The translations under genes and the position numbers were made by a program. A stretch of 64,000 nt of DNA from Mytilus galloprovincialis. Its lineage: Eukaryota > Mollusca > Bivalvia > Mytilida > Mytilidae. How positions within the stretch are numbered: the first letter of the stretch is position 1; each line of letters opens with the position of its first letter. Positions 29,175 to 32,300 of the stretch are shown here, in pieces. Location of the stretch: the NCBI RefSeq assembly GCF_965363235.1, contig NC_134846.1, positions 55,913,121-55,977,120 on the forward strand. Direction: 5' to 3'. Below the pieces are notes generated by a model. That model had not been told where the DNA came from and ran no database searches. It was given only the letters and a program-made list of their open reading frames with translations.

Positions 29175-29314
29175 TTACGTAGCATATTTCTGTGTCCATT
29201 CTTTAGCTATTTCATTATACTTGGGTCTGTCTGTCTTATACGTTCTGGCAATATCTGGTACTAAAGGATCGTCTGGGTTTGGGTCATTTAAGAGCGAGCA
29301 TATGGACAGAAGCA
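29175..29314 (-). CDS. UBE2D: UBE2D terminal exon C (distal)
   Basis: 140 bp, acceptor TTTTTCAG, phase 1 (the G from the previous exon completes Val102). It encodes residues 102-147, ending TQKYAT, with Asn111, Thr126, Pro132 and an Ile at 137 not seen in the other two. Stop TAA at 29175. Of the three tails, only this one keeps the TQKYA ending that I recall from vertebrate UBE2D. Confidence 0.93.
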
Positions 29315-32300
29315 CTGAAAAAATAGTCAAAATAATCCTTAACTTCCACTAAACAATTATAATGATAGCATGAAAATAAAGATTACAAAATTTCAACATA
29401 TATAAATTGTGTAAAATGTGAAACAACTACTGTACATGTACACATATGACTGACTGGACATGCAAAAAACGAAGGGAAACATATATAGACTTATATGAAA
29501 TTTCACTTCTAAAAATACTATTTCATTACCGAGAAGTACTTTCTTTGTAAAAAAACATATCACACTTTGTGAGGTATTATTATTAGACAAACCACAGACT
29601 TGCATAAATTATCACATCATTTTACGTTCTTAACCAAAATTTCCAACGGTTCAATAATATTTTTAGAAGCTAAGTTGTTACTACAAAAATTGGGAGCAAA
29701 TGAACTGAAGTACATATTTAATGATGACGACAAGCTATAATTCGCATTTCAGAAATGATAAATATATAATAAATATGTACATACAATTCAATTCATTAGG
29801 GAGCATCTTTAAATATGTACTTGTACAAAACAATCAATGACTGGTCAAAAGTTTGTTAGTGCATATTAACTTATCAGTCATTGTGCATTTTCATTTACTT
29901 CCCAAATAAATTCTTCATATATTTTCAAATCTATTTTATATCATAATATTGTATAAAAAAAACTGTCAGTTAATTATCCATGGAAAGTTTTGAATCACAT
30001 AGCGAATTTCCTGGTCCACTCTTTTGCAGTATCACTGTATTTTTTACGATCGGTCTTAAACAATCTGGCTATGTCTGGAACTAATGGGTCGTCTGGGTTT
30101 GGATCACAAAGTAGAGAACATATAGAGAGAAGAACTGAAAATATATGAAGAATTTAAGTTATCCAGAAAAGATTTCCAGTTGTAACATCAAATAGTTACG
30201 GTTTGTTTGTACAACTGCTTTCTGAAGACATATAGGTGCTATACATTTAAATATACTATGGATTAATTTATTATCATGGGTACCAATTTTCCTGGATTGT
30301 GGTTTTGCCAAAGTCTGGATACAACTTCATAGAAATTTGTATGTCATTGAACATTTAAATTCCTGGTTCATCTGTACCAATGAAACTTGGAATTCAAAGA
30401 ATAATAATGAATCCACAGTAGTAAGAACAGTTCCTTCCATTCATCATATCAAAATAAAACATGCAGACAAGTCATAAATGATCTCATTTAAATGAACGGA
30501 AGGAAATGTTTTAAATATGAAAACAATACTGCAGCATAACCATCATTAAATCTCTATATATATATGTGAGAAGGTTTATATCTAAAGGCTGTAAAAAGCC
30601 TTGTTTTTGGAACATATAGATTTTCAATTCTGCAGATCACAACAACCATGCAAACTTAATTCTAAAATGATGCAAAAATGAACGCTATTAGGACATGAAA
30701 AAAGAAGTTTTGCAGCCCTGGGCATTCTGAAAAATATTTCATTAAAAGCTATGGTTTCAGATTACTCGGAATAAAGACAGCAAAACTGGACAAGGTGATG
30801 AAATTGGAAATTATTTTATGTAACTACAGCTGCATACATTTGCATGAAAAATCCTGAAATCAAAGAAACCAGATTTGTCAACATAAAACATTGAAAAAAA
30901 TTATTTTTTTTGGCTTGGATAAAAACAAAAGTTAGTCTTGAATGAAATGCAACTAAAAATTAATACACCTTATCACTATTTGTCCGCTATTACTGTACAT
31001 CACAAATGTTTCCGTAAAATTTTGATGTCATATTAGCAAGTATCTGACACCACAATGGAAAAGTGGGTGTTGTATGACATCAAAAAAGTTCAATCGGGAC
31101 TGATTTCCAAATAGCAATAAGGTGTATTGAAATGAGGATGCATGATGGTCCATGTAAAAAAAGTTGAATCATGCCGAATCAAGGAAAATGTTTTGTATTT
31201 TAATTTTTCCTCGTATAAAAAAATTGTACAATTCAGCACAAAAATTACTCATTGTTTCGGTAAATAGACATTCAAATATATTTGTCCAATATTGTAACAT
31301 GTTCAGTACACCATCAAATGTGTGCAGTTTGTAGAATCATTGAGCATATTTCCTTGTCCATTCTTTAGCTGTATCTGCATACTTCGATTTATCAGTTTTA
31401 TAAATTCTAGCTATATCTGGTACAAGTGGGTCATCTGGGTTGGGATCTGTTAGTAATGAACAGATAGACAGAAGGACTGAAACACACAAGAAAAAGTAAT
31501 AATTCTGTTCTGATGCCAACTTAATTTTTATATCACTTCCTACATAAGTACTTTTTCCTGTGTGAAAAAGCTTAAAAAAAGGGGGGAAAAAATTGAACCT
31601 AGGATATCTAGATATCAATGTCTTGTAAAATTAAAATATTAAGGATTCATTTAAATCAAAATGCAGACTGGATGATGCAATATGAATAGGAAAATCTCAG
31701 AGTATCCTGAACTCCTGAATAAATCTTACATTAACAGTAACAGGTAATCTAATTTTTGGCCAAATTAATAATTCAAGATATATTTCATTAATCACATTGA
31801 GAGTCACAATACTGAACTTCAATACACATAGTGACAACCACAAACCTATAAATTTCACTTGTTTTCATTTGCTTCTAAAGTCATGAAAGTGGATATTTCA
31901 AAGTCGTACTGAAGCAAATTGCATAATTTTGCAGTTATATTTGTTATTGTAAGCAAAACACTGTATTGTAGTCTATATATTAGATTTTATAAACTTTAAG
32001 CAAGCCTATATTAGCACATATCAAATTTAAGCCAGCTTGTATCAAAAAATAAAATACATTAAATTGTGCCGTCTTTCTGGCTACAATAGGTTTTCTCACA
32101 CCTTTTTCTTTGATCTTGTTACCTTAAGTTCACACCTCACAGACGCTTTCATGTTTAACAAAATCATCAAATGAATCTATAAATAATGATATGAATGAGC
32201 GCTTGCTAGAATGGCTTTTTCTGTTGGGTACCCAGGTAACAGACAGGAGTATAATCCCAATCATTTTATTACCACTTTGTTAATAAAATTCCAGGAATAT

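Follow-up and report, generated by a model that had tools for sequence, protein, structure and literature searches.

A mussel UBE2D gene appears to carry three tandemly duplicated alternative last exons, and choice among them by splicing and polyadenylation would yield three isoforms; we put the probability of this reading, which is drawn from sequence comparison, at roughly 0.8, and on it one gene probably makes three versions of the enzyme. The gene lies on the minus strand of the window, the whole stretch of DNA analysed here (C9:55913121-55977120, 64,000 nucleotides), which belongs to a searched genome of 1.38 Gb in 331 contigs. Five core exons, running from the ATG at 41319 to 33845, encode residues 1-101 and measure 24, 64, 32, 78, and 106 nt, with GT-AG borders, and they are followed by three terminal exons, here called cassettes A, B, and C:

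41296..41319, minus strand: coding exon 1 (MALKRINK), donor AAG|gtacgt, read in the sequence
37292..37355, minus strand: exon 2, ending in a split codon, read in the sequence and its translation
35947..35978, minus strand: exon 3, read in the sequence and its translation
35280..35357, minus strand: exon 4, read in the sequence and its translation
33845..33950, minus strand: exon 5, penultimate and common to all isoforms, with Cys85 and Ser94-Pro95-Ala96 and a phase 1 donor, AAG|gtaatg
31337..31476, minus strand: terminal cassette A (Thr111, KYAQ end), from sequence, translation, and UQ_con match; the cassette of the related entry P0006 is identical
29995..30134, minus strand: terminal cassette B (Cys111, Phe127, KFAM end), from sequence, translation, and UQ_con match; joined product P0221
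29175..29314, minus strand: terminal cassette C (Asn111, KYAT end), from sequence, translation, and UQ_con match; present in the Mytilus edulis model P0005

Each cassette is 140 bp long, follows a TTTCAG acceptor in phase 1, and closes with its own stop codon (TGA in A and B, TAA in C). The codon for Val102 is split between the last G of exon 5 and the start of the cassette, and the core joined to any one cassette gives a 444-nt CDS, i.e. 147 aa and a stop. Adjacent homologous exons, a single acceptor phase, separate stops, and a common upstream exon, the features looked for in tandem last exons, are thus all present. The sequence-only reading had described three 140-bp terminal exons of like acceptor and phase, each completing 147 residues, and its coordinates were confirmed in the sequence; Leu104, Asp112, Asn114, and Asp117, which it held to be kept, are seen in the translations of A, B, and C, and the single Cys111 that it reported, with Thr or Asn in the other cassettes, proved to be that of B, with Thr in A and Asn in C. 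It also placed the differences at residue 111 and within 126-147, which is where all 11 variable positions fall (111, 126, 127, 131, 132, 135, 136, 137, 143, 145, and 147).

The translated core contains the active-site Cys85, HPN at 75-77, SPA at 94-96, Phe62, and Ser22. Cys85 and the SPA motif of UBE2D are treated in the available text of PMC9790923. Isoforms A, B, and C each match UQ_con (PF00179) with 184-185 bits against a cut-off of 27, profile positions 1-139 of 140 corresponding to residues 5-141 in all three, without long extensions, and the solved structures nearest to isoform A are 1z2u (2.1e-93) and then UBE2D1, UBE2D2, and UBE2D3, among the best 60 of 316 matches. Judged by its sequence, the gene therefore has the domain span, the length of 147 aa, the motifs, and the nearest structures of a class I E2 (UBE2D). 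Elsewhere in the window, also on the minus strand, long frames between 8799 and 15035 resemble retrotransposon pieces by eye, among them one at 8799-10346 that is reverse-transcriptase-like and others at 11479-13748 that are gag/protease-like, and a frame at 57977-58348 looks by eye like part of an alpha-L-fucosidase.

The cassettes differ from one another at 8 (A-B), 9 (A-C), and 10 (B-C) of their 46 residues. Third codon positions account for 26/41, 23/37, and 25/40 of the nucleotide differences (binomial p 8e-5 to 3e-4), and this excess, together with a dN far below dS where the latter is estimable, argues that the likeness of the cassettes is not due to chance. By NG86, dN is 0.174 for A-B, 0.155 for A-C, and 0.165 for B-C; dS for A-C is 2.19 (NG86), 1.12 (LWL85), or 2.23 (YN00), that for B-C is 1.89 by YN00 and undefined by NG86 and LWL85, and that for A-B is undefined by all three methods. 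The dN/dS comparison among cassettes that had been proposed from the sequence thus gives an omega of 0.06-0.14 for those pairs with a defined dS, which A-B lacks. Because dN is low and dS is high or beyond estimation, the cassettes are old duplicates on which purifying selection has acted ever since their separation, and the pairwise estimates, with dS undefined for A-B, extend this to each copy. Searching the genome with isoform B returned the cassettes in the window only, and one near-identical site each for exons 2, 4, and 5 (exons 1 and 3 are too short for detection in this search); these single core sites, the confinement of the cassettes to the window, and their divergence rule out assembly or haplotype duplication as their source.

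A different origin would make the downstream cassettes partial tandem duplicates of the gene that have lost their own upstream exons and are transcribed separately. A tandem array on C5 does show whole-gene tandem duplication in the UBE2D-like family, and Tegillarca P0001 is annotated as two cassettes without a core, but a second copy of any core exon was not found in the window, the cassettes are spaced only 1.2 and 0.7 kb apart, their 140-bp length, phase, and acceptors are conserved exactly, and the same core is joined to B in P0221, all of which makes such an origin extremely improbable.

The reading of alternative last exons was followed further among relatives in the databases. When residues 102-147 of each cassette served as a protein query, 6104 (A), 5127 (C), and 4782 (B) matches passed E <= 0.001; the best 120 from each query, 296 distinct proteins from which 280 cassettes were extracted, were compared. 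Counterparts of the window gene occur in Mytilus edulis and on evidently mytilid contigs. In P0221, a core identical to that of the window over 101/101 residues is joined intronless to a B-like cassette (2/46 aa differ); the cassette and its flank form one alignment with window B (67% over 98 codons, E 5e-33), and the part beyond the stop matches the 3' flank of B alone (40% over 52 codons, E 6e-4). Because the core-to-B join is accompanied by an aligned B flank, a join of exon 5 to B has occurred in a relative. P0221 could be a transcript or a retrocopy, and a retrocopy would imply past splicing of exon 5 to B, not its present use. P0006 represents the genomic cassette A region in a close relative: it agrees with the window at 95.7% over 186 codons that take in the intron tail and the 3' flank, and its cassette is identical at 46/46 residues. 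P0005, a Mytilus edulis UBC4 of 176 aa, has a core identical to the 101 residues of the window, followed by a truncated B and an intact C that differs from window C at the junction residue alone; junction evidence for C comes from this gene model only. The donor in B that P0005 implies (GATC|GTAAAA) exists in the window, and the fusion of truncated B to C through this cryptic donor is probably a prediction artefact.

These relatives bear on the possibility that a single last exon, most likely B, works, while the remaining two survive as relics or as cryptic exons that are seldom used. Such a view would fit P0221, which makes B the sole cassette with junction-like evidence, the canonical Cys111 and Met147 kept in B, and the weak poly(A) signals near A. 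On the other hand, frames, stops, and acceptors are undamaged in A and C and dN is low; P0006 has an unchanged A, and P0005 a C that is altered at the junction residue alone, whereas a relic of such age would be expected to have decayed; we therefore consider a single working exon unlikely, and three usable ones the better account.

Two cassette motifs were present in 5/296 listed proteins, namely three bivalve and two plant models. The bivalve models are P0005, P0001 (Tegillarca granosa KUTeg_004148, with a Thr111 cassette and then a Cys111 cassette, without a core), and P0003 (a Mizuhopecten yessoensis E2-17 kDa model of 246 aa with two Cys111 cassettes); of the plant models, that from Cynara has two E2-like copies in a row, and that from Camellia has one core and two C-terminal pieces. 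Because 2/5 of these proteins are from plants, fused models alone are no proof of alternative last exons. Taken at face value, P0005 and P0003 would mean that cassettes are spliced in series, e.g. part of B to C by way of an internal donor, giving an extended E2 in which the C-terminal region is present twice, and the GATC|GTAAAA donor in window B is consistent with this. Every cassette, however, contains an in-frame stop, helix 2 would be duplicated in the product and the UBC fold should break, and the joins between cassettes vary among the three bivalve models, as they would in automatic models forced to use all exons, so that serial splicing is very unlikely. To judge from the sequences, automatic annotation that forces tandem alternative last exons into one protein is the likely explanation of all three bivalve models.

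Residue 111 is by itself a poor marker. Thr111 occurs in 114/286 motifs of the listed proteins, whose make-up is biased by the choice of queries; because it is common there in other organisms, residue 111 alone is not diagnostic of a bivalve cassette; Asn111 was met outside bivalve cassettes in the Didymodactylos carnosus protein P0144. A cassette tree over 46 columns (35 rows, of which 29 were chosen among the 296 listed proteins, one is the C cassette of P0005, and five are from the window and the genome; the second Mizuhopecten cassette and one Echinococcus protein were left out by the extraction pattern) had no resolution, and dating of the duplications by it failed. We therefore refrain from pairing cassettes of different bivalve lineages as one-to-one orthologues, and a common origin of the bivalve arrays is no more than possible.

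In the mechanism that we propose, exon 5 of the pre-mRNA would be joined to one of the three acceptors. With its own stop and presumably its own 3' UTR and poly(A) site in each cassette, use of a proximal cassette would end the transcript there; where it is skipped through weak splicing or weak poly(A) use, B or C would be taken instead, and recognition of the proximal acceptor and poly(A) signal would thus compete with read-through to a distal last exon. A and C would then be used as well as B, in mutual exclusion, each with a separate poly(A) site and perhaps under tissue control. The candidate poly(A) signals, all identified as motifs only, are as follows:

31199..31204, minus strand: ATTAAA, candidate for A
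30267-30272, minus strand: AATAAA, another candidate for A, ~1.06 kb below it
29717..29722, minus strand: ATTAAA, candidate for B
28796..28807, minus strand: ATTAAAAATAAA, candidate for C, the most canonical of the three

The candidates 3' of A and B are weak or distant, and a motif scan found no AATAAA between B and C. The 3' flank of C contains a 73-bp unit 2.1 times at 98% (28811-28960), and this repeat immediately precedes the most canonical signal. Pyrimidine content over the 30 nt 5' of the cassette is 0.63 for A, 0.57 for B, and 0.57 for C, and ranges from 0.60 to 0.73 for exons 2-5. When 400 nt upstream of each cassette were compared with the 5' portion of the exon 5 intron, by exact words only, the three upstream regions had 0 complementary 7-mers and 8-mers in common (shuffles expect 2.89 and 0.10); mutually exclusive choice guided by RNA structure, of the PGRP-LC type, is thus without support from common complementary words. 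An Rfam scan of the window gave 0 matches. By analogy with flies, in which ELAV proteins favour distal alternative last exons according to the available text of PMC8055025, ELAV-type regulators are a plausible control of cassette choice.

Products A, B, and C would be full-length UBE2D proteins that have the catalytic site, the surface for RING and U-box binding, and the backside ubiquitin site in common; the differences would lie at residue 111, where the crossover helix ends, and over the alpha3-alpha4 surface (126-147). Most of the crossover helix presumably comes from the cassette, as do the 112-120 loop and helices 3 and 4. Counted by us, residues 121-147 carry a net charge of +3 in A, +4 in B, and +2 in C, and Lys128, Lys133, Tyr134, Ala138, Trp141, and Lys144 are invariant. 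UBE2D enzymes are described as promiscuous and highly conserved, with the C-terminal helix region (127-147) the most variable (PMC7306689, available part), and the variable C-terminal side chains of UBE2D3 in fishes as facing mainly outward (PMC9790923, available part). Within what is accessible of both sources, Lys128, Lys133, Ala138, and Lys144 are singled out, Lys128 is implicated with CHIP and RING1B, and phosphorylation at 138 is reported to control UBE2D3 stability in amniotes (PMC9790923, PMC7306689). Because the changes fall mostly in the variable region, the isoforms would be expected to be alike in core catalysis and unlike in secondary contacts, stability, or Cys111 redox behaviour. 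The changes at 111 and over alpha3-alpha4 should modulate contacts with substrates, E3s, or nucleosomes, or else the charge, stability, or redox sensitivity of the enzyme. Three E2 isoforms with one catalytic site had been predicted from the sequence; the anatomy and the single catalytic site are well supported, and expression of the isoforms stays a prediction.

Other E2 genes of the same genome give this arrangement a context. An intact intronless UBE2D copy at C1:86789766-86790203 (minus strand; L001:1480-1947) has a 155-aa frame, is 87% identical, and carries Thr111; over the core, dN is 0.057 (dS undefined). It has the look of an old retrogene that selection has retained. Its C-terminal part differs by 11 aa from A, 15 from B, and 13 from C, and by 46, 50, and 49 nucleotides per 140 nt, respectively, and being nearest to A in sequence, it weakly suggests past splicing of exon 5 to A. 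A further UBE2D paralogue lies at C9:77.34 Mb, and divergent UBE2D-like genes form the tandem array at C5:96.66-96.76 Mb (C5:96660000-96766000); in the stretches read of this paralogue and this array, no gene had more than one terminal exon. At least one exon of the array has Tyr at the expected active-site Cys (L013, GEVYLDIL).

A genome-wide profile search at E <= 10 gave 88 matches, including 22 C-terminal exon matches (start at least 80, end at least 124), 6/22 of which are below the family cut-off; weak or very short last exons may escape detection by it. By hand count the 22 represent 19 E2-type genes, with one terminal exon in 17, three in the window gene, and two in a RAD6 (UBE2A/B)-like gene at C8:611539-613330 (minus strand; L019:3539-5330). 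Because 17/19 genes have a single terminal exon, multiple terminal exons are not general for E2 genes here, and the window gene is not alone in having them. In the RAD6-like gene, the penultimate exon common to both ends finishes ...AILTSIQ|gt and the two tandem alternative last exons are phase 0; one tail has the acidic stretch QDDSDDEEDTTKELS and the other is shorter, and over 39 aligned codons the two have an NG86 dN of 0.18 and dS of 2.03. A separate search found no further close copy of these terminal exons. This parallel suggests a recurrent route of E2 diversification.

Exon 7 of vertebrate UBE2D3 covers the final stretch of the protein only. In vertebrate Ube2d3, a minor alternative last exon 7a lies upstream of the main exon 7b (PMC7306689, available text), a likeness to the mussel gene in E2 family and in tandem alternative exons at the 3' end, and a difference in that there are two exons, 7a being minor, whereas the mussel has three, each encoding residues 102-147 including 111. 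The statement in the sequence-only reading that vertebrates reach such diversity with separate UBE2D genes is, as far as that text goes, too sharp, given exons 7a and 7b; the mussel in turn also has separate UBE2D-like genes (on C1, C9, and C5) and thus has both. Tropomyosin genes (TPM1, Drosophila Tm1, C. elegans lev-11) have tandem duplicated triplets of 3' exons, apparently of separate ancestry, and in human tandem duplicated exon substitutions, most of them ancient, the event is C-terminal in 77/236 cases (PMC9741552, available text). To that extent both resemble mussel UBE2D, the former in three tandem duplicated 3' exons with homologous alternative C-termini, the latter in swaps of homologous exons, but tropomyosin is a structural coiled-coil encoded by different genes, and UBE2D has an enzyme fold. 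The string 'UBE2' is absent from the main text of PMC9741552, the available part, where the one mollusc mention is of a calcium channel. The terminal exon clusters of Drosophila pip and the 3' variable regions of PGRP-LC are, in the accessible text of PMC9013439, tandem homologous mutually exclusive exons like those proposed here, the pip arrays being larger; PGRP-LC choice is reported to go through competing RNA structures, whereas the word search found no such complementarity in mussel UBE2D. In percomorph fishes, the available text of PMC9790923 describes a UBE2D3 C-terminus that is hypervariable, mainly on the outward alpha4 face, with the rest highly conserved; there the variation is between genes and species, and in the mussel it is found within one gene, from exon to exon. 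Cassette B has a 12-residue string in common with P0228, a UBE2D4-like protein of a seahorse.

No description in molluscs was known to the sequence-only reading, and our search of the open-access literature, of which it covered a part, likewise found tandem last exons in mollusc E2 genes nowhere described. Tandem duplicated last exons are known as a mechanism; new, within that coverage, are the three-way set for residues 102-147 in a bivalve UBE2D and the recurrence of this design in another E2 gene of the genome, the RAD6-like one. In the public models of Mytilus edulis, Mizuhopecten, and Tegillarca, a single protein contains two cassettes, which suggests misannotation, and counting expression on one UBE2D mRNA in mussels would mask isoform switches. 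Three natural C-termini on an identical core are a ready-made swap experiment for the role of that surface. Speculatively, and with more doubt than confidence, it may be that bivalves retune general E2s by tandem last exons that swap C-terminal subdomains, besides using separate genes; UBE2D (three ends) and RAD6 (two, one with an acidic tail) would then belong to one programme, the UBE2D array would have been kept across the Tegillarca, Mizuhopecten, and Mytilus lineages, and cell-type- or stress-specific choice would redirect E2 output.
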